Shown piece after piece: positions 40,747-64,000 of a stretch of 64,000 nucleotides of DNA (positions are counted from its first letter, which is position 1; every line of letters begins with the position of its first letter). Source of the DNA: Marinobacterium arenosum. Its GTDB lineage: Bacteria > Pseudomonadota > Gammaproteobacteria > Pseudomonadales > Balneatricaceae. The position numbers and the translations under genes were made by a program. Location: positions 1 to 64,000 of the forward strand of contig NZ_JAILYN010000001.1 in NCBI RefSeq assembly GCF_019795155.1. The letters are read 5' to 3'. The notes under the pieces are model-generated. The model saw nothing but the letters and a program-made list of their open reading frames with translations, searched no databases and was not told the origin of the DNA.

Positions 40747-41463
40747 GTGCCGACTACGAAATCTGCCCCTGCCGTCAATCGACTGATCACGGCCTTGCCC
40801 AGCGCGGAACGGCAACGCTTTCTGGCCGGTTGCGAGCGGGTGACGCTGACCTTCGGCGAGGTACTGGCTGAACCTGGCAGCCCCCTACTTCATGTCTACT
40901 TCCCCACGGAAAGCTTCATTTGCCTGACGACAACGATAAACGGGCACACCCGCCTGGGGGTGATGCTGGTCGGGGATGAAGGAATGCTGGGCATCTCACT
41001 GATACTCGGCCTGAATCTGTCTCTTCTGCACGCCAGCGTACTGGGTCCGGGCCAGGCGCTGCGCATGGAGAGCGCGCAGTTTTGCCGCGAACTCGAACTC
41101 AGCTCCGCATGGCAAAGACTGCTGAAACGCTATCTCTACGTGATGATGGGCCAGCTGGCACAGACCTCGGCCTGCAACCGCTTCCATCCGTTGGAGGCAC
41201 GTCTTGCCCGCTGGTTCTTGATGGCGCAGGATCGGGCGCACTCGGACTACTTTCATGTCACCCACGAATGCCTGGCCCAGATTCTGGGCGTACGTCGTGT
41301 CGGCATCACCAAGGCGGCCAGCATGCTGCAAAAGCGCAAACTGATCCGCTACCACCGCGGGGATATCAGGATCCTCGACCGTGGCGGTCTGGAGGCATCG
41401 GCCTGCAGCTGTCTGCGTCTCGACCAGTCGCTCTACGCTCAGTTCCTGGAGTCGACGCGTTAG
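40747..41463 (+). CDS. Crp/Fnr family transcriptional regulator (first of two)
   Basis: 238 aa, start GTG 40747. A cyclic-nucleotide-binding-type beta-barrel (about residues 15-120, LTFGEVLAEPGSPLLHVYFPTESFICL and VGDEGMLGISLILG) is joined by a long helix to a C-terminal HTH: FHVTHECLAQILGVRRVGITKAASMLQKRKLIRYHRGDIRILDRGGLE. No N-terminal cysteine cluster is present, so it is not an Fnr-type iron-sulfur sensor. The ligand is unknown. It resembles the second copy at 42026-42793 in layout and HTH. The palindromic motif upstream is a candidate target. Confidence 0.85.
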   Translation: MPTTKSAPAVNRLITALPSAERQRFLAGCERVTLTFGEVLAEPGSPLLHVYFPTESFICLTTTINGHTRLGVMLVGDEGMLGISLILGLNLSLLHASVLGPGQALRMESAQFCRELELSSAWQRLLKRYLYVMMGQLAQTSACNRFHPLEARLARWFLMAQDRAHSDYFHVTHECLAQILGVRRVGITKAASMLQKRKLIRYHRGDIRILDRGGLEASACSCLRLDQSLYAQFLESTR

Positions 41464-41506
41464 AGCCTGCCCTACCGATATCGGCATTGGCAGCAGCACG
41501 GCGGAA

Positions 41507-41525
41507 TGTGCGTTTGCGCACAGAC
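41507..41525 (+). promoter_or_regulatory. 19-bp palindromic motif, copy 6 (upstream of DUF1328 gene)
   Basis: TGTGCGTTTGCGCACAGAC matches the consensus at 16 of 19 positions; its arms TGTGCG and CGCACA remain fully complementary. It lies 96 bases ahead of the DUF1328 gene. Confidence 0.6.
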
Positions 41526-41620
41526 GCGGTCCCCGGATTGAACAATCCTAGCAGTGATGATGCGTGGCGGCACTGGCTCGCGTGCTGCTCCGTTGTCCAC
41601 CCCAGGCAGGAGGAAACGCC

Positions 41621-41785
41621 ATGCTGTATTACGCCGTTGTATTTTTCATTGTCGCGCTGGTCGCCGGGTTACTGGGCTTTACCGGTATCGCAGCCGGTGC
41701 CGTGGAGATCGCCAGGATCCTGTTCCTCGTTTTCCTCGCGCTCTTTGTCGTGTCACTGATCGTGGGGCTGAAACGTCGCCGATAA
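41621..41785 (+). CDS. DUF1328 family (YtjA-like) small membrane protein
   Basis: 54-aa protein with two membrane helices: [20 protein letters not shown] and a second around [21 protein letters not shown], ending [21 protein letters not shown] is the DUF1328 signature. ATG 41621 has AGGAGG ten bases upstream. Small inner-membrane protein of unknown role, common in stress gene sets. Confidence 0.92.
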
Positions 41786-42025
41786 CCTCAGACTCGCCGC
41801 AATAACCCGCGATGGCGTGCCATCCGGCGCCTGGGGCTTGGCACCTGCGGCCGGAGACAAGCGCCTGATAATTTTAAATAATTCGGGGGCTTTTTGCCGG
41901 GCAAGCGGATGCTCCCTCGTTGATACAATAATATGGGGCGCGCGAGACTGCTTGCCTTGGAAATTTGTCTATATTGGTAGGACATCACTCTTTGAAGACG
42001 CCGCGTCAGCCAGGAGGCTCCGAGC
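41786..42025. other. Intergenic stretch ahead of the second Crp/Fnr gene
   Basis: No gene and no copy of the 19-bp motif are visible in this 240-base gap. Confidence 0.5.
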
Positions 42026-42793
42026 GTGGCGAGCGAGCGAAACAGGAGATCGACCGTGCCGCCCCTTCATAATGCCCCGCCCCCTCATGACCCGCGACAG
42101 AATCACCTGATCGCCGCCCTGCCGGCGGATGAATATGCACGGCTCAGTCCGCATCTGGAACGGGTGCCGCTGCCACTCGGCCACGTGCTCTACGAGTCCG
42201 GACGCGTGTTGCGCCACGTGTATTTCCCGACCGACGCCATCGTCTCGCTGCTGTACGTCATGTGCGATGGCGATTCAGCCGAAGTCGCCGTGGTCGGCAG
42301 TGAGGGCATCATCGGCATTGCCCTGTTCATGGGCGGCGAAACCATGACCAATCGCGCCGTGGTACAGAGCGCCGGCCACGCCTACCGGCTACCGGGGCAA
42401 CTGGTGAAGCGGGAGTTCCAGGCTTCAATCGCGCTGCAACATCTACTGCTGCGCTACACCCAGGCACTGCTGACCCAGATGGCGCAGACCGCAGTGTGCA
42501 ACAGGCATCACACGCTTGACCAGCAGCTCTGCCGCTGGCTGCTGATGAGCCGCGACCGGGTAGCATCGGACGAGCTGCTGATGACTCAGGAACTGATCGC
42601 CAACATGCTCGGCGTGCGCCGCGAGGGTGTCACCGCAGCCGCCGGAAAACTGCAGGCGGCCGGCCTGATCCACTACCACCGCGGTCACATCACCATCCTG
42701 GACCGGGCCGGACTAGAGGCTAGGGCCTGCGAATGCTATGCGGTGGTCAAGCATGAGTACGACCGACTACTGGGGGAGAGCAGCGTTGCATAA
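42026..42793 (+). CDS. Crp/Fnr family transcriptional regulator (second of two)
   Basis: 255 aa. Start GTG 42026 has AGGAGG eight bases upstream. N-terminal beta-barrel (VPLPLGHVLYESGRVLRHVYFPTDAIVSLLYVM, then VVGSEGIIGIALFMGG), dimer helix, and HTH LLMTQELIANMLGVRREGVTAAAGKLQAAGLIHYHRGHITILDRAGLE. The HTH is very like that of the first copy (LGVRRxGxTxAAxxLQxxxLIxYHRGxIxILDRxGLE), so the two are paralogues that may share DNA targets. No 19-bp motif copy was seen ahead of this one. Confidence 0.88.
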   Translation: MASERNRRSTVPPLHNAPPPHDPRQNHLIAALPADEYARLSPHLERVPLPLGHVLYESGRVLRHVYFPTDAIVSLLYVMCDGDSAEVAVVGSEGIIGIALFMGGETMTNRAVVQSAGHAYRLPGQLVKREFQASIALQHLLLRYTQALLTQMAQTAVCNRHHTLDQQLCRWLLMSRDRVASDELLMTQELIANMLGVRREGVTAAAGKLQAAGLIHYHRGHITILDRAGLEARACECYAVVKHEYDRLLGESSVA

Positions 42794-54587: not shown

Positions 54588-56573
54588 GTGAATTTCGAAG
54601 CTGCCATGGCTGTTCGCAACCCATCCCACAACCGTCCGCCGGCAAGCGGACGGACAGAACGCATCGTCACGCCCGAGATCGAGGGCTCCTGGCGGCGCTG
54701 TATCGAGCAATACCATCTGGAGCCGGGTCGGGACCTGCGTGCCCCACGCCTCGGCGAAGCGGAGATCCGCAATGCCCGCGAACAGCTCGACAACCTGCTC
54801 TATTCCGCCGATCCAGTATTCGAACGGCTGCGCCAGCTGGGCGGCAACTCCGGCTACTGCGTGCTGGTGACCGATGCCAATGGCATCGTGCTGCGCCAGT
54901 ACATCGATACCCAGCGCGGCCAGGAACTGGCCGACAAGGGGCTGACGGTCGGCACCGTCTGGAACGAAGAACTGGTCGGCACCAACGGCCTGGGTACCTG
55001 CCTGGCCAGCGGCGAGGCGCTGACCGTCTATGCCGACGAGCATTTCGGCCGCGAACTGCAGCGCTTCAGCTGCTCTACCGCGCCGCTAATTGCGCCGGAT
55101 GGCGAGATGATCGGCGCGCTCGATATCTCCACCTACGCCCAGGGCGACAAGATCGGCCAAGGCTTGGCATTGAATCTGGTGTGCGATACCGCCGACCAGA
55201 TCGAAGCGGCGATGTTCCGTCATGCCTATGCCCGCCACCACCTACTGGCGCTGGTCGGCTCGCCGATGGCCGATGCCGGCCAGGCCAACGCGCTGCTGGC
55301 GGTCAACGACTCCGGCTGGATTCTGGGCGCCACGTCGCCGGCACTGCTGCAACTGGGGGTCAGCGAGCGTAATCTGATCGTCGGTCAGGGGCTGGCGGCG
55401 TTGACCGGCGCCACCGTCGAGGAGCTGCACCGCGGCCCCGTTGCGTTGACCGATGCCGGCAGCCCCGGTTGCTGGCTGGTACGCCTGAGCGGACAGCTCA
55501 CCACAACCGATAAACCGACAACCACAAACGCCCCTTCACCCGCTCCGCGCCGGCTGGACTCGCCGCTCTACCGGGCCGCTGGCCGGGACCCGCAGCTATT
55601 GCGCAACGCCGATATCTGCCACCGGGTACTGGAACGTGATATCAGCATCCTGCTGCAGGGCGAGACCGGCACCGGCAAGGAGGTGTGGGCTCAGGCGCTG
55701 CACGACAGCAGCAGCCGTCGCGAAAAACCGTTCGTGACATTGAACTGTGCCGCGATCCCCGAGTCGTTGATCGAGAGCGAGCTGTTCGGCTACAGCGCCG
55801 GCACCTTTACCGGCGGCCTCAAGGGCGGCAAGGCCGGCAAGATCGAAGCCAGTAACGGCGGTACCCTGTTCCTGGACGAGATCGGCGATATGCCGCTGGC
55901 GCTGCAGGCACGGTTGCTGCGGGTACTGGCCGAGCGCGAGATCACGCCGCTGGGCCAGGTACAGCCGGTCAAGGTCGATCTGCACGTAATCTGCGCCACC
56001 CACCGCGACCTGACCGAGCGGGTCGAACGCGGCGAGTTCCGTGAAGACCTCTACTACCGGATCAGCGGCGTGCGGGTGGCACTGCCGGCCTTGCGCGAGC
56101 GCCAGGACCGCAACGAGCTGATCGACAAACTGCTGCTGCAGCTGAGCGAGCTGAATGACCAGTTGAATGAAAAGGAACATCCGGTCAGCATCGACCCGCA
56201 GGCGCTGCAGGTGCTCAACCAATACCACTGGCCGGGCAATATCCGTCAGCTGAAAAATGCCCTGCAGTTCGCGCTCTGCATGTGCGATAGCCAGCGTATC
56301 CGCATCACCGACCTGCCGGACGAGGTATTCCCACCCGCGCCGGGAGAAATGACCGCACCAACCGAACCGGTCAGCAACGAAGCGCCACCGCAAAGACTGG
56401 TTTCATTAGCTCAGCCGCATGGCTCGGGGCCGCTGGCGCCGGATGAAAGGGCCCGGATACTGGCCGCCTTGCAACAGCACCGCTGGGTGGTGTTGCGGGC
56501 CGCCGAAGCGCTCGGTATCAGCCGCTCCACCCTGCACCGCAAGATCAAGAAATACGGCCTTCATGAGTGCTGA
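54588..56573 (+). CDS. acoR: AcoR, sigma-54-dependent activator of acetoin catabolism
   Basis: About 661 aa. An N-terminal GAF-type sensor (residues 25-215, GYCVLVTDANGIVLRQY and VGTNGLGTCLASGEALTVYADEHF), a PAS-like segment (about 230-300), and a AAA+ domain follow: Walker A GETGTGKE, LFLDEIGDMPL, then RQLKNAL. The sigma-54-contact loop reads GTFTGG, where GAFTGA is usual and GTFTGA common. A Fis-type HTH ends the protein (RAAEALGISRSTLHRKI). Start is GTG 54588 or ATG 54606. It is divergent from acoA and probably binds the tandem sites in the gap. Confidence 0.9.
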   Translation: MNFEAAMAVRNPSHNRPPASGRTERIVTPEIEGSWRRCIEQYHLEPGRDLRAPRLGEAEIRNAREQLDNLLYSADPVFERLRQLGGNSGYCVLVTDANGIVLRQYIDTQRGQELADKGLTVGTVWNEELVGTNGLGTCLASGEALTVYADEHFGRELQRFSCSTAPLIAPDGEMIGALDISTYAQGDKIGQGLALNLVCDTADQIEAAMFRHAYARHHLLALVGSPMADAGQANALLAVNDSGWILGATSPALLQLGVSERNLIVGQGLAALTGATVEELHRGPVALTDAGSPGCWLVRLSGQLTTTDKPTTTNAPSPAPRRLDSPLYRAAGRDPQLLRNADICHRVLERDISILLQGETGTGKEVWAQALHDSSSRREKPFVTLNCAAIPESLIESELFGYSAGTFTGGLKGGKAGKIEASNGGTLFLDEIGDMPLALQARLLRVLAEREITPLGQVQPVKVDLHVICATHRDLTERVERGEFREDLYYRISGVRVALPALRERQDRNELIDKLLLQLSELNDQLNEKEHPVSIDPQALQVLNQYHWPGNIRQLKNALQFALCMCDSQRIRITDLPDEVFPPAPGEMTAPTEPVSNEAPPQRLVSLAQPHGSGPLAPDERARILAALQQHRWVVLRAAEALGISRSTLHRKIKKYGLHEC

Positions 56574-58492: not shown

Positions 58493-59641
58493 TCAGGGCT
58501 CCACCCAGGCGCGGAACTGGAAGCTGCCGTCGCGCACTTCCTGCACCACGGCACTGCGCACCGGGTCGCCGGAGTCCAGGTAGTCGATCCGGCCGGTCAC
58601 CCCCTCGTACGGCGGCATCGCCAGCAGGGCGTCGCGGATGCCCTGGGGTTCGACGCCGCCCAGTTGCATCGCCCGGAACAGCAGGCCGAAGGCATCGTAA
58701 CTCAGCGCCGCCACGCCATCGGCGTCACGTCCGTAGAGCTGGCGAAAGTGATCGGCGAACGCCCTGATCGCCGGCTCGACACTGTCCACCGCGTAGTGGC
58801 CGCTGAAGAATGCCCCCTCCACCTGCACCCGGTCCACCGGTCGAATCTGGGCCCAGCTGTCGCCCCCCATCAACTGGGCATCGATCCCCATCTCACGGGC
58901 CTGGCGAGCCTGATCCGGTACTTCGCTGTAGTAGTTGGGCAGGAACAGCAGCTCGGCGCCGCTATTTTTAATTCGCTGTAGCTGTTCGCTGATATCCGCT
59001 ACATCACGGGTATAAGCCTCGTAGGCGACCACCTCGCCGCCGAGTTCCTCGAAGGTCGCGCGAAAATACTCGGCTAGCCCCCGGTTGTACTCGCTGGCAA
59101 CGTCGAACAGTACCGCCGCCCGGCTCAAGCCCAATTGCTGGCGGGCAAAACGGGCCATCAACCGCCCCTGGAAGGTATCGATGAAGGCGGCCCGGAACAC
59201 CCACTGCTTGCCTCGCGTGGTCTCGGGATTGGTCGACGAGGGGCTGATCATCGGAATTCCCGCCTGCTCGGCGATGCGCGCTGCCGGAATCGCATTGCGG
59301 CTGGCCAGCGGGCCGACGATCGCAACAACGTTGTCCTGGTTGATCAGCCGCAATGCGGCGCTGGTCGCCTGTTCCGCGCTGTCCTGGTTGTCCTCGACAT
59401 GCAGCACCAGCCGGTAACGCCGACCGTCAATCTCCAGGCCGCCGGCACTGTTGACCTCGCCAACCGCCAGTTCGGCCGCCGCCAGGCAAGCCTCGCCCAT
59501 GCCGGCGATCGGCCCGCTGAGCGCCGCCACCAGACCGATATGCAACTCCGCCGGTTCCGCCTGGCGGTCGCTGCAACCGCCGGTCACCAGCAGCAAGAAA
59601 GCCAGTACCAGGCCGACAGCCTTGACAATGGGTTGCGCCAT
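58493..59641 (-). CDS. Type-1 periplasmic binding protein, lipoprotein (LivJ-like)
   Basis: 382 aa. Signal peptide with lipobox VTGGC (cysteine about residue 23), then a full type-1 periplasmic binding fold: IGLVAALSGPIAGMGEACLAAAELAVGEVNSAGG, VAIVGPLASRNAIPAARIAEQAGIPMISPSSTNP and YDAFGLLFRAMQ. It resembles branched-chain amino acid/amide binding proteins. No ABC permease or ATPase gene is present. It lies 35 bases after the nucleotide-cyclase gene on the same strand, so it may be its periplasmic sensor (inference). Confidence 0.85.
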   Translation of the reverse strand: MAQPIVKAVGLVLAFLLLVTGGCSDRQAEPAELHIGLVAALSGPIAGMGEACLAAAELAVGEVNSAGGLEIDGRRYRLVLHVEDNQDSAEQATSAALRLINQDNVVAIVGPLASRNAIPAARIAEQAGIPMISPSSTNPETTRGKQWVFRAAFIDTFQGRLMARFARQQLGLSRAAVLFDVASEYNRGLAEYFRATFEELGGEVVAYEAYTRDVADISEQLQRIKNSGAELLFLPNYYSEVPDQARQAREMGIDAQLMGGDSWAQIRPVDRVQVEGAFFSGHYAVDSVEPAIRAFADHFRQLYGRDADGVAALSYDAFGLLFRAMQLGGVEPQGIRDALLAMPPYEGVTGRIDYLDSGDPVRSAVVQEVRDGSFQFRAWVEP

Positions 59642-59676
59642 TCGACCTCCCATGGATGCCGATTATTCCGAGATGC

Positions 59677-61470
59677 TCAGCAATGGTGACCGACGGCGGC
59701 GGTCTTGCGCCCCTTCAGCATATAGGTGTGCATCTTGCCCTTGCCTTTGACATCGATGAACCCGCGATCACCGAATTCGTACTGGTCGCGCAGGTAGTTA
59801 TAGGTCGCCTCGGTCACCTGGATGCCGCCTTTGAGCCCCTGCGACTCCATCCGGGCCGCCGTGTTGACCGCATCTCCCCAGATATCATAAATAAACTTCT
59901 TGGTGCCGATGACACCGGCCACCACCGGCCCGCTGTTGATACCGATCCGCATACTGAGGTCGGTCTGATGGTGGTGGTTGAAGCGCTTGATCACCGCCAG
60001 CATGTCCAGTGCCATCTCGGCGACCACCTGGGCGTGGTCGTCGCACTTGGTCGGCAAGCCGGCACCGACCATATAGGCGTCACCGATGGTTTTGATCTTC
60101 TCCAGGCCGCGTTTCTCGCAGAGGCTATCAAACTCGGAGAAGATCTCATTGAGCAGGCTGACCAGTTCCGCCGGCGGCAGGCCGGCCGACATCGGTGTGA
60201 AATTGACGATATCGGCGAACAGGATGGTCACTTCGGCAAAGCTGTCGGCGATGGTCTCCTCGCCGCGCTTGAGACGCTCGGCGATTGGCGCCGGCAGAAT
60301 ATTGAGCAACAGCTGCTCCGATTTCTGCTGCTCGGCGGCCAGCTCCTCCAGGGTGAATTTCAGCTGCCCGATCATATTGTTGAAGTTGGTCGCCAGCACG
60401 CCGGTTTCATCTTCGGTCAGTACCGGCGCGGTCTGCTCCAGGTCGCCGGCGGCGATTTTGCAGGTGGTATCGCTGACCGCCACGATCGGCCGGGCAATCC
60501 GACCGGCAATCAGGTAGATGCCGATACTCAGCAGCGCCACCGCCAGCAGCCCCACCGCGAACAGCATCCAGCCCAACCGATAGGCCGGCGCCAGTGCCTC
60601 ACTGGCGGGAATCTCGATGATCAGCGCCAGCCCCAACTGCTCCAGCCAGCGGTAACTTCCGATCACCGGTACGCCGGCGTAATCGTCATAGTAGCCCGAG
60701 CCATTGATGCCCTGGATCGACTGATCGATCCCCTGACTATGCACGCCGCGCGGATAGCCCTCAAGACCAAAGCTTTCCAGCGACAGGTAGCGGTTATGGG
60801 CATCAACCAGGTAGGACAGGCCACTCTCCCCCAGCCCGGTCCGCCGACTGACGATCTCCACCAACACCGACAGCCGCAGGTGAGCCGCCAGCACGCCGAG
60901 CGGTTGACCATCGGGACTGATCAGCGGCGTGGCCACGGTGAGCATCGGGGCACCGGTTTCCGGCGAGGGGTAAACCGACTGCAGGAAGGTGCCCTTGCGC
61001 CCCTCGATGAAGTAACGATCGCTGAGCCGGTACTCGCCTTCATGGCGGGTATCGGTTGAAAAGAACACGCCGCCACCGGCATCGGTCAGCAGCAGGATTT
61101 CGGTCAGCTCGGTGGCCTGCGTGGTGCCCTGCTCAAGGAAGGTGGCGTAGAACAGTACTTCGGCCAAATGCTCGTAGGCTGCCTGCCGCTGGACGGTGCC
61201 GGGTTGTTCGGCCAGCAGGATAGCCGCCGCCTTGCGCAGGTCGTCGAGGCCGGCAATGTTCTGTACGATCTTGCGCTGATCGGCGACGAAACGGTTGATC
61301 TCAAACTCCTTGTGATCGGCCACCAGGTCGAAGCGGGAGATCGCCATCTGCTTCTGACTGGCCGCCGCCAGCACATAGGTGACCCCAGCCAGCGCAACCA
61401 CCACCAACATCGAAACCAGCAGAAAATACAACGTCATTCTGGCTTTCAGGCTTTTCTTGAACAGCCCCAT
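59677..61470 (-). CDS. Membrane adenylate/guanylate cyclase with sensor and HAMP domains
   Basis: 597-aa receptor. First membrane helix residues 14-36; periplasmic dCache-like sensor about 37-300 (LLTDAGGGVFFSTDTRHEGEYRLSDRYFIEGRKG, GQPLGVLAAHLRLSVL); second helix near 310; HAMP (AGRIARPIVAVSDTTCKIAAGDLEQTAP); class III cyclase domain with metal Asp in FADIVNFT, KIKTIGDAYMV, and DIWGDAVNTAARMES. Lys in KTIGD and Asp in DIWGD fit ATP specificity, so cAMP is the likely product. ATG 61470. Two type-1 binding-protein genes flank it. Confidence 0.9.
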   Translation of the reverse strand: MGLFKKSLKARMTLYFLLVSMLVVVALAGVTYVLAAASQKQMAISRFDLVADHKEFEINRFVADQRKIVQNIAGLDDLRKAAAILLAEQPGTVQRQAAYEHLAEVLFYATFLEQGTTQATELTEILLLTDAGGGVFFSTDTRHEGEYRLSDRYFIEGRKGTFLQSVYPSPETGAPMLTVATPLISPDGQPLGVLAAHLRLSVLVEIVSRRTGLGESGLSYLVDAHNRYLSLESFGLEGYPRGVHSQGIDQSIQGINGSGYYDDYAGVPVIGSYRWLEQLGLALIIEIPASEALAPAYRLGWMLFAVGLLAVALLSIGIYLIAGRIARPIVAVSDTTCKIAAGDLEQTAPVLTEDETGVLATNFNNMIGQLKFTLEELAAEQQKSEQLLLNILPAPIAERLKRGEETIADSFAEVTILFADIVNFTPMSAGLPPAELVSLLNEIFSEFDSLCEKRGLEKIKTIGDAYMVGAGLPTKCDDHAQVVAEMALDMLAVIKRFNHHHQTDLSMRIGINSGPVVAGVIGTKKFIYDIWGDAVNTAARMESQGLKGGIQVTEATYNYLRDQYEFGDRGFIDVKGKGKMHTYMLKGRKTAAVGHHC

Positions 61471-61582
61471 GCAACCACCTGCTGTGACCGTGTCCAACGC
61501 TGACGAACATCAACGCCAAACAGGCCCTAAACTTATCTAAGTATATAGCGGCAATCCCAGCCGCCCGTCAGGGAGCATAGCG

Positions 61583-62920
61583 ATGACCCGCCCGTTCAGG
61601 GAGCAAAGCCCCCTGATTTCAACCGCCCGATTGCACCGGCGACAGCTACTGCAGGCCGGCATGGCCTTCGGCGCGCTCGGTGCCCTTTCGCTTCCGCTGC
61701 TGGCGCTTGCAGATACACCGACCGGCCAGGTCGCCGGGGTACTGAAGATCGGCGCCATCGGGCCGTTCAGCGGCCCGGCCGCCCAGACCGGCCGGGCGAT
61801 GCAGCAAGGTATCCAGATGGCATTGGACGACGCCCGCGCCGACGGCGAACTGCCGGTCACCCTCGATGGTCAGCCGGTCGAAATCGAGATCGTCTGGATC
61901 GACAGCCGTTCCGACCCGCAAGTGGCGGTGGCGGGCCTGACCCGGGCAATCCAGCAACAGGGGGTGCAGATGATGTTCGGCGGCTGGCACTCGGAAGTCG
62001 GCCTGGCGCTGATGGAGGCGGAGGTGCCTTGGCAGATCCTGCACTTTGGCCATCTGGCGGAAACCCCACAGATTGCCAACCGGCTCAATCAGCAGCCGGA
62101 GCGTTACCGGGGCTGGTTCAAATGCTGGCCGTCGCCGACACATATCTCGGCACTCTATGGCGAACCACTGCAGTACTTCCGGCAGCAGGGCCTCTGGCGA
62201 CCGGCCAACAACCGGGCGGCGGTGATGACAGAGGACACCGCCTTCGGCCGCGATTGGGGCGAAGCGCTGCAAGCCAGCTTGTCGGAAGCGGGCCTCGAAA
62301 CCTTCCCTTACGACCTGACCGAATTGACGCAAACCAACTTCAGCCAGTTATTGGACAAGTACCAGGCGATGGAGGTTTCGCTGGTGGCCTTCACCAACAC
62401 CGGCAACCTGGCGACAGCGGAATTCGTCAAGCAGTTTCGCCAGCGGGGCATCAAGGCGCTGCTGATCGCCCATGGTATTCGCTGGTTCAAGGACTGGTAC
62501 AAATTGACCGGGCCTGCCTCCGATTACCTGATATCGCTGGATTCGGTACCCATCGCACTCTGGCAGCAGTGGTGGGTGCGTCGCTTCAAGCGCCGTTTCC
62601 GCGAGGACCCCACCATCGCCGCTGCCGGCCTGCAGTACGACTATGCCAGGATGATGGTACGGCTACTGAACGCGGCCGGCACGCTGGAGCTGGATACGTT
62701 GATACGCACCCTGCGGCGGATGTCGTACAAGGGTGTCTGGAACCATTACAAGTTCGCCAGCGAGCCCGGTCCGCGTGCCCGTTCGGCCAACGAAGTCATG
62801 ACCGGGCCGTTCATGGAGGGATTCAGTTTTCCGCTGGTACAGCTGTTCCAGGGCAAGGCCCGGGTTATCTGGCCACGCAAATATGCCGAGCAGGCATTTC
62901 GACAGCCGCCCTGGCTGTAA
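61583..62920 (+). CDS. Type-1 periplasmic binding protein (UrtA/AmiC-like)
   Basis: 445 aa. A Tat-like signal LHRRQLLQAGMAFGALGALSLPLL ends near ALA (about residue 43). The mature part is a type-1 binding fold of the urea/short-amide class: KIGAIGPFSGPAAQTGRAMQQGIQMALDDARADG, MMFGGWHSEVGLALMEAE, AVMTEDTAFGRDWGEALQASL. No transporter partner genes are present. It is divergent from the cyclase gene, and 21 bases ahead of the antiporter in line with it. A sensor or chaperone-type role with the cyclase is possible. Confidence 0.82.
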   Translation: MTRPFREQSPLISTARLHRRQLLQAGMAFGALGALSLPLLALADTPTGQVAGVLKIGAIGPFSGPAAQTGRAMQQGIQMALDDARADGELPVTLDGQPVEIEIVWIDSRSDPQVAVAGLTRAIQQQGVQMMFGGWHSEVGLALMEAEVPWQILHFGHLAETPQIANRLNQQPERYRGWFKCWPSPTHISALYGEPLQYFRQQGLWRPANNRAAVMTEDTAFGRDWGEALQASLSEAGLETFPYDLTELTQTNFSQLLDKYQAMEVSLVAFTNTGNLATAEFVKQFRQRGIKALLIAHGIRWFKDWYKLTGPASDYLISLDSVPIALWQQWWVRRFKRRFREDPTIAAAGLQYDYARMMVRLLNAAGTLELDTLIRTLRRMSYKGVWNHYKFASEPGPRARSANEVMTGPFMEGFSFPLVQLFQGKARVIWPRKYAEQAFRQPPWL

Positions 62921-62941: not shown

Positions 62942-64000
62942 ATGCATGAGACGCTGCTACTGGTACTCGGATTGATCGGTCTGCTGACCATCGCCAGCCT
63001 GCTGTTGCCGATCGCCAACCGGATCAACTTCCCCTACACGGTGTTGCTGGCACTGGCCGGCAGCCTGCTCGGCGCGCTGGTGATGGCCCGTGGCGAGATG
63101 CCGGCCGGCGGTCTGCTGGGCGACTTCCTGCATGCCCTGGACGCGCTGGATATCACCTCCGAGGTGGTGTTCTTCGTGTTCCTGCCGGCGCTGATCTTCG
63201 AGTCGGCACTGAACATCAACGCCCGCCATCTGATGGCCGATATCGGCCCGATCCTGCTGCTGGCGGTCCTCGGCCTGTTGATCTCGACGCTGTTGGTCGG
63301 CCTGACGATCTGGCCGCTGACCGGCGTCGGCCTGGTCGCCTGCCTGCTGATCGGCGCCATCGTCTCGGCCACCGACCCGATCGCGGTGATCGCCATCTTC
63401 AAGAACCTGGGTGCGCCGAAGCGGTTGACCATCCTGGTCGAGGGCGAAAGCCTGTTCAACGACGCCACCGCCATCGTCACCTTCACCATTTTGGCGGCGA
63501 TCCTGCTCGGGAGTGGCGAAGCTGATCCACTGTCGGCAACCGGCCGGTTCCTGCTGGTGTTCTGCGGCGGCATTCTGGTCGGCCTGGTCAGTGCCTGGCT
63601 GACCGCCGCGCTGATCGGCCGATTGCGCAACCTGCCCTTGGTGGAGATCACACTAACCATCTGCCTGGCCTACCTGAGCTTCCTGCTGGCCGAGCACTAC
63701 CTGCACGTTTCCGGCGTCATGGCGGTGGTCACCGCCGGCCTGGTGATCAACTCCTTCGGCCGCACCCAGGTGTCACCGCAAACCTGGCATGCACTGACTG
63801 AAACCTGGGAGGAGCTGGTGTTCTGGGCCAACTCGCTGATCTTCTTCCTGGTCGGCCTGCTGGTACCCCGGGTAATGGCCGACTTCACCGCCGGCCATGC
63901 GCTGGCATTGGTGGCACTGACGCTGGCGGCCTTCATTGCGCGGGCGCTGGTACTCTACCTGCTGTTGCCGGCATTGAACCGGATCGGGCTGGGTCAGCAG
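62942..64000 (+). CDS. CPA1-type Na+/H+ antiporter, truncated by window end
   Basis: 353 residues of a longer protein are present from ATG 62942 to the last base. About ten membrane segments: LLLVLGLIGLLTIASLLLPIANRI, FVFLPALIFESALNI, and the hallmark IVSATDPIAVIAIFKNLGAPKRL and VEGESLFNDATAIVTFTIL with the ion-binding Asp, then HVSGVMAVVTAGLVIN and WEELVFWANSLIFFLVG. These are the features of NhaP/CPA1 antiporters. It follows the binding-protein gene by 21 bases. Confidence 0.9.
   Translation, partial: MHETLLLVLGLIGLLTIASLLLPIANRINFPYTVLLALAGSLLGALVMARGEMPAGGLLGDFLHALDALDITSEVVFFVFLPALIFESALNINARHLMADIGPILLLAVLGLLISTLLVGLTIWPLTGVGLVACLLIGAIVSATDPIAVIAIFKNLGAPKRLTILVEGESLFNDATAIVTFTILAAILLGSGEADPLSATGRFLLVFCGGILVGLVSAWLTAALIGRLRNLPLVEITLTICLAYLSFLLAEHYLHVSGVMAVVTAGLVINSFGRTQVSPQTWHALTETWEELVFWANSLIFFLVGLLVPRVMADFTAGHALALVALTLAAFIARALVLYLLLPALNRIGLGQQ

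Follow-up and report, generated by a model that had tools for sequence, protein, structure and literature searches.

What do two periplasmic binding proteins serve when their genes flank that of a membrane nucleotide cyclase, and on what would the product of this cyclase act? The question was raised by the end of the window, i.e., the whole 64,000-base stretch analysed, which represents bases 1-64,000 of a 223-kb contig and is cut within an antiporter gene. According to the original prediction, the binding proteins, accompanied by no permease genes, present ligands to the periplasmic sensor of the cyclase, which would make cAMP, with two Crp/Fnr proteins encoded in the same window as implied receivers. 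The cAMP-type residues, the lack of a linked branched-chain-type permease and the conservation of the gene set were upheld by the present analysis, while the Crp/Fnr output was not.

The cyclase and the two binding-protein genes were all located where they had been predicted, with Pfam domains in agreement. The cyclase gene (59677-61470, minus strand) encodes a 597-aa protein with a first membrane helix (TM1), a periplasmic dCache domain, a second helix (TM2), a HAMP domain and a class III catalytic domain, as displayed by Pfam matches (dCache_1, E 1.8e-14; HAMP, 4.1e-10; Guanylate_cyc, 2.3e-67) and two hydrophobic stretches. The sensor domain occupies 60616-61191 (residues 103-294 of the longest open reading frame) and the catalytic domain 59710-60246, both on the minus strand. 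The longest frame (606 aa) begins with a TTG at 61497; full-length homologues align from its residues 6-13, which is consistent with the predicted ATG at 61470 (residue 10). The AF2 model of the cyclase had a mean pLDDT of 77.4 and a pTM of 0.51, and part of the dCache domain used as a sequence query returned two weak chemoreceptor matches (E 0.03-0.05).

Residues D420, D464, K460, D529, N536 and R540 were invariant in all 19 cyclases compared. By the roles known from mammalian cyclases, D420 and D464 would be the metal aspartates, K460 and D529 the purine residues and N536 and R540 the transition-state residues. K460 and D529 are the Lys and Asp on which an adenylate type had been proposed, and the protein, carrying the residues expected of a class III adenylate cyclase, is predicted to synthesize cAMP from ATP. 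The best Foldseek matches of the catalytic domain were 5o5l and 5o5k (48% identity), and Rv1625c structures matched at 33-46%. Rv1625c/Cya is a mycobacterial class IIIa cyclase and 5o5k its relative, a bacterial adenylyl cyclase; the likeness covers the catalytic domain and its adenylate-type residues, whereas the window cyclase has a periplasmic dCache domain and HAMP in place of the six-helix membrane anchor of Rv1625c/Cya.

Downstream of the cyclase on the same strand (58493-59653, minus) lies the gene of a LivJ-like binding lipoprotein, hereafter BPB (Peripla_BP_6, 3.7e-56; PDB match 3td9, E 7.3e-52). The 35 bases formerly given for the gap between both genes hold for an internal ATG at 59641, and the gap shrinks to 23 bases with the ATG at 59653. 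Divergent from the cyclase, 61583-62920 (plus strand) encodes BPA, an AmiC/UrtA-like binding protein (Peripla_BP_6, 1.9e-44) with a twin-arginine signal, of which R19R20 was invariant in 15/15 proteins. The lipobox Cys27 of BPB was likewise invariant (10/10); it is followed by Ser in the BPB of the window and by Asp in five of the ten proteins, all from Photobacterium. In E. coli, an Asp after the lipoprotein Cys leads to inner-membrane retention, and by this rule the Asp-bearing Photobacterium proteins would stay anchored close to the cyclase. BPB residues S118, T141 and D265, kept in 10/10 proteins, align by eye with amino-acid-binding positions of the leucine-binding protein, and their conservation makes an amino acid a plausible ligand of BPB. 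The pocket signature of BPA differs from that of BPB (W135 and H136 in 15/15), its AF2 model (mean pLDDT 80.9) had 3h5l as top Foldseek match (E 1.9e-24), and the ligands given for the structures nearest to it are diverse. BPA and BPB are thus no equivalents of each other, and either may be missing from the module: BPA was found beside 11/13 full-length cyclases of the window's family and 4/6 in Photobacterium, BPB beside 4/13 and 6/6, respectively.

The original prediction had staked itself on relatives sharing the gene set, and the set proved conserved. Among 116 genomes of the family (cyclase E<=1e-60, BPA 1e-50, BPB 1e-50), nine harbored the cyclase, with 16 matches (13 full-length and three reduced to the C-terminal catalytic part), and the identical nine harbored BPA, with 12 matches, of which 11 adjoined a full-length cyclase and one (L063) had no cyclase beside it; BPB was present in four genomes. 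Together with six Photobacterium loci from the genome collection, the 13 family loci gave 19 distinct full-length cyclase loci, a Marinobacterium rhizophilum locus being dropped from the counts as a duplicate of G031:C8. BPA adjoined 15 of the 19, BPB ten, and at least one binding protein 17, always oriented as in the window; two (L058, and L056, whose contig reaches just 1.8 kb further upstream) had a cyclase without an adjacent binding protein. Two Photobacterium loci (L024 and L030) had BPB and the antiporter beside the cyclase without BPA, and no BPA was found elsewhere in these genomes at 1e-30. The independent lineages are few, since seven of the nine cyclase-bearing family genomes belong to one genus (g6, Marinobacterium by inference). 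They comprise the window's own lineage, G004, g6 and Photobacterium, to which G054 is added for the antiporter. In wider searches, the cyclase was found in 1/293 genomes of the order (E<=1e-120) and 1/369 of the class (E<=1e-100), in both cases its own, figures that understate its spread because three to four candidates were scored per genome and cyclase-bearing Photobacterium was missed; the antiporter (E<=1e-130) was likewise found in 1/293 order genomes, its own.

BPA and the cyclase have also been inherited together. Their distances were correlated over 14 adjacent pairs (r 0.931), a value reached by none of 20,000 label shuffles, which ignore kinship. Swapping the two cyclase copies within a genome (L050/L057 or L048/L059) lowered r to 0.74 or 0.67; this swap is a stronger test of co-inheritance than the label shuffles. 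Both trees set apart the same second group (support 100/100), and BPB and cyclase distances were correlated as well (r 0.968, ten pairs). Linkage and co-duplication thereby lend support to the putative coupling between the cyclase and its binding proteins. A binding-protein gene adjoining 17 of the 19 receptors is what is found with receptors activated by solute-binding proteins (SBPs), on which these proteins would dock. We consider it likely that the cyclase works as a single signalling unit with the binding proteins.

The relay suggested by these genes would begin in the periplasm, where BPA (Tat-exported), BPB (lipoprotein) or both would bind a small solute. The closed binding protein would dock on the cyclase through its dCache domain, HAMP and a signalling helix would relay this signal to the catalytic class III part, and cAMP would be made near the membrane. 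It may then bind the two C-terminal domains of the antiporter and alter, in one direction or the other, the exchange of cations and protons. That the whole chain, from ligand through BPA or BPB, dCache and cAMP to CNBD-gated exchange, is a one-locus relay is a proposition to which we give even weight. As a counterpoint, the dCache domain of the cyclase may itself bind ligand, dCache domains being known as a family to bind small ligands directly.

The antiporter gene, overlooked by the original prediction because it runs past the window edge, encodes the probable output. It starts 21 bases past the end of BPA, on the plus strand, and spans 62942-64000 in the window, continuing to contig base 65818 (L047:5942-8818); the 958-aa product is a CPA1-type cation/proton antiporter with two C-terminal cNMP-binding domains (CNBDs), as displayed by Pfam (Na_H_Exchanger, 1e-62; cNMP_binding, 7.4e-38, in two stretches). 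The best PDB matches of its membrane part were sperm-specific Na+/H+ exchangers (E 1.2e-57), and those of its C-terminal part included nucleotide domains of protein kinases A and G and the MloK1 channel. N173, D174, R368 and, in the CNBD1 cassette, E772 and R781 were invariant in 8/8 antiporters, and both the Glu and Arg of the CNBD2 cassette were kept in the 7/7 having this domain; the ND motif and the phosphate-cassette Glu and Arg presumably play their usual roles. With an Na_H_Exchanger domain bearing the ND motif and a CNBD bearing Glu and Arg, the protein is, by its sequence, a CNBD-containing CPA1 exchanger. In one genome (G004, L049), the second CNBD is replaced by about 260 residues, and the last 286 residues had no match in Pfam (E<=0.1), NCBIfam or PDB (E<=0.01). 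Only one of the 12 inner branches of the CNBD tree was well supported, too few to date the doubling of the domain.

An antiporter adjoined seven of the 18 testable cyclase loci (that of the window, G004 and five Photobacterium), the contig of L027 ending inside BPA, and the order antiporter-BPA-cyclase-BPB recurred in G004 and three Photobacterium. A survey of antiporter relatives (23/116 family genomes at 1e-60; 28/369 class genomes) served as control, with 44 non-module loci made up of 15 family and 29 class matches, after leaving out G029, G032, G033, G034 and G040 of the family and G683:C79 of the class. An HMM scan of the stretches fetched, with neither flank shorter than 4 kb in 37/44, found a class III cyclase beside none of the 44. 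These more distant antiporters had one CNBD (37, a minimum for L129, whose contig ends at its CNBD) or none (seven), while all seven two-CNBD antiporters adjoined a cyclase. For five of these the adjacency follows from selection, since they were reached through the cyclase, and that of the window was the seed. The sole unselected tandem-CNBD case was G054, from another genus, of which the antiporter (63% identity along almost its entire sequence) begins 261 bp behind the gene, in the same orientation, of a class III cyclase of 431 aa. This cyclase is soluble and of a different kind, having no dCache match and no clear membrane helix, so that the antiporter-cyclase link exists with two different cyclases. 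The two-CNBD rule has an exception in the G004 antiporter, which has one CNBD and adjoins the cyclase as well. Of 87 plasmid records with an antiporter relative, the two examined showed no cyclase within 6 kb in an incomplete gene table.

It was also considered whether the signalling unit consists of the cyclase and its binding proteins, next to a separately regulated antiporter, with cAMP acting via Crp-type or other CNBD proteins. Consistent with this, the seven g6 genomes retain BPA and the cyclase with no CNBD antiporter beside the latter (RND and HlyD-type genes follow the cyclase and BPB in L048 and L050), and distant antiporter relatives (33-35% identity) lie elsewhere in all seven, the three examined having one CNBD and no cyclase nearby. 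The two Crp/Fnr proteins of the window are real, as confirmed by a Pfam scan of ten window ORFs: one (40747-41463) matched HTH_Crp_2 only and the other (42026-42793) cNMP_binding and HTH_Crp_2; a narrow CNBD model derived from the antiporter picked neither. They are encoded at a distance of some 16 kb or farther, with no link to the module, and their proposed role as cAMP output was dropped in favour of the linked candidate, the tandem-CNBD antiporter. Against a separately regulated antiporter stands the recurrence of its linkage in the own genome, G004 and Photobacterium, and in G054 with another cyclase. We hold this alternative to be unlikely, though still worth weighing, and the antiporter to be, where present, somewhat probably the linked receiver. 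In the divergent intergenic region between the cyclase and BPA (61471-61582, 112 bp), a CRP-like operator mediating cAMP feedback was sought and rejected, the best match (7/10) being reached by 26% of shuffles; over 11 divergent regions, best scores were 6-7 of 10, reached by 26% to more than 99% of shuffles.

The binding proteins could instead deliver or scavenge, for ABC transporters encoded elsewhere, the same ligand that the cyclase senses directly by its dCache domain. Besides the presence of this domain, the genome offers four places with a total of seven PF02653 permease matches, of which the one closest to BPA lies some 30 kb away at contig base 93415; however, all four places have their own adjacent binding-protein gene (three Peripla_BP_6, one ABC_sub_bind). 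The claim that the module binding proteins have no linked permease was sustained, since no branched-chain-type permease was found (blast E<=1e-4) at any of 25 loci, i.e., the 19 module loci, the duplicate L029, L060-L063 and L084; the same blast picked up 6/7 known permeases with queries other than themselves (27-38% identity). In G004, genes of an ABC transporter of an unrelated kind (ABC_tran, BPD_transp_1) lie downstream of the module. BPA and BPB are alike in fold and export signals to LivJ/LivK and AmiC/UrtA of branched-chain-type (HAAT) ABC transporters, but differ from these SBPs in having no linked BPD_transp_2 permease. Together with the co-duplication of BPA and the cyclase, this makes direct sensing beside a distant transporter a doubtful reading.

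The cassette was probably transferred horizontally, as the window cyclase clustered with the six Photobacterium cyclases (support 100/99) and three genomes of its own genus (G035, 71% complete, G036 and G037) lack it. The BPA tree leaves the place of the window's protein unresolved and brings no confirmation. That unrelated genes were merely kept adjacent through the transfer of one segment would fit the patchy distribution (cyclase in 1/4 genomes of the own genus and 1/17 of g2) and the grouping with Photobacterium, but is very improbable, as the set persists despite cyclase identities of 53-73% between the window and related modules and flanking genes that differ among the own genome, G004 and Photobacterium, and an antiporter of this type is also found paired with a cyclase that is no orthologue of the window's.

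The proposed unit of SBPs, cyclase and antiporter has partial counterparts in known systems. Receptors activated by SBPs include, in passages of one paper (PMC9602780), chemoreceptors, sensor kinases, diguanylate cyclases and phosphodiesterases, and Ser/Thr kinases; adenylate cyclases are named there as signal receptors, but outside this list. The module resembles them in that a binding-protein gene adjoins the gene of a receptor bearing an extracytosolic domain, and differs by its predicted class III, cAMP-type output. No SBP-driven adenylate cyclase was described in the open-licence PMC literature searched, including sections of PMC8846402, PMC11394779 and PMC11113362. Receptor-type class III cyclases are known from Sinorhizobium meliloti, where the text consulted (PMC13001267, PMC10463352) mentions CHASE2 or quinone-responsive cyclases and Crp-type regulators, and neither antiporters nor SBPs. 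The best-ranked plasmid relatives of the window cyclase had 37-39% identity over about 70% of it.

For the antiporter, the nearest counterpart is sperm SLC9C1 (sNHE), an exchanger with a voltage sensor and a CNBD (PMC6052114), functionally coupled with soluble adenylyl cyclase and restricted to Metazoa under a definition requiring both features, according to portions of PMC6660944. Both are exchangers with C-terminal cNMP binding paired with a cyclase, and sperm exchangers gave the best PDB match; the window protein, in contrast, is bacterial and has two CNBDs instead of one, and its module adds a gene-linked membrane cyclase and binding proteins. A voltage-sensing domain was not found, Na_H_Exchanger and cNMP_binding being the only Pfam matches (E<=0.001), so the antiporter is not SLC9C1 proper, and we infer its cyclic-nucleotide gating from domains and residues. 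No bacterial antiporter with a CNBD and a linked cyclase was described in the open-licence PMC literature searched, and 'cyclic nucleotide', 'CNBD', 'cNMP' and 'cAMP' were absent from the text available of a review of prokaryotic Na+/H+ exchangers (PMC9408914). A self-contained SBP-driven adenylate cyclase with a cAMP-gated tandem-CNBD antiporter, as a separate-gene bacterial counterpart of the animal pair of cyclase and cNMP-regulated Na+/H+ exchanger, is a tentative reading, to which we give slightly less than even weight.

Each step of the relay is testable, since each of the four proteins can be produced on its own. In textbook bacteria, cAMP acts mainly via Crp-type transcription factors; if true, the relay would be a direct, non-transcriptional cAMP pathway by which a chemical outside the cell would affect its ion and pH balance. 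Class III cyclases would join the receptors driven by SBPs, and cyclic-nucleotide-gated Na+/H+ exchangers, which are best known from sperm, would gain a genetically simple model.

Genomes of the Marinobacterium-type genus, so assigned by inference, carried further genes around the cyclase and its two binding proteins (BPA and BPB). At one locus (L051:4670-16010) and similar loci of this genus, the neighbours of BPA and the cyclase encoded a C26 peptidase and an HTH-cupin regulator, along with glutamine synthetase-type, aldehyde dehydrogenase and histone-deacetylase-family proteins. This gene set, which we take to be polyamine-breakdown-like, may give a hint to the ligand. Two genomes of the genus had an RND pump gene of the AcrB type, together with one for an HlyD-type protein, after the cyclase and BPB on the same strand (L050:8742-16048, by Pfam; L048:2466-9776, by clustering).

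Relatives of the cyclase catalytic part (55-60% identity) were found in three genomes of the same genus (L060, L061 and L062), preceded by an AraC-type gene in L060 and L061. At L058:6308-10181, the cyclase had no binding-protein gene next to it and was convergent with a Na_H_Exchanger+TrkA_N antiporter, which is of another type than the CNBD antiporter. A PilZ-domain protein (L084:7307-7780) was encoded upstream of the soluble cyclase and antiporter of genome G054.

Within the window, two Crp/Fnr-type regulators were encoded near each other (40747-42793); since the first matched in its HTH part only, its nucleotide domain may be degenerate. The GAF, sigma-54-interaction, Fis-type activator (54588-56573) adjoined ORFs that by eye are dehydrogenase-E1-like, an ordinary acetoin-type arrangement.

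The antiporter of genome G004 displayed about 260 C-terminal residues in the position of the second CNBD (L049:3480-4340). Searches of this stretch against Pfam, NCBIfam and PDB returned no matches, and an HD-phosphohydrolase-like H..HD pattern was seen in it by eye. If this stretch were a phosphodiesterase, an enzyme would take the place of a sensor domain, which would be of interest.
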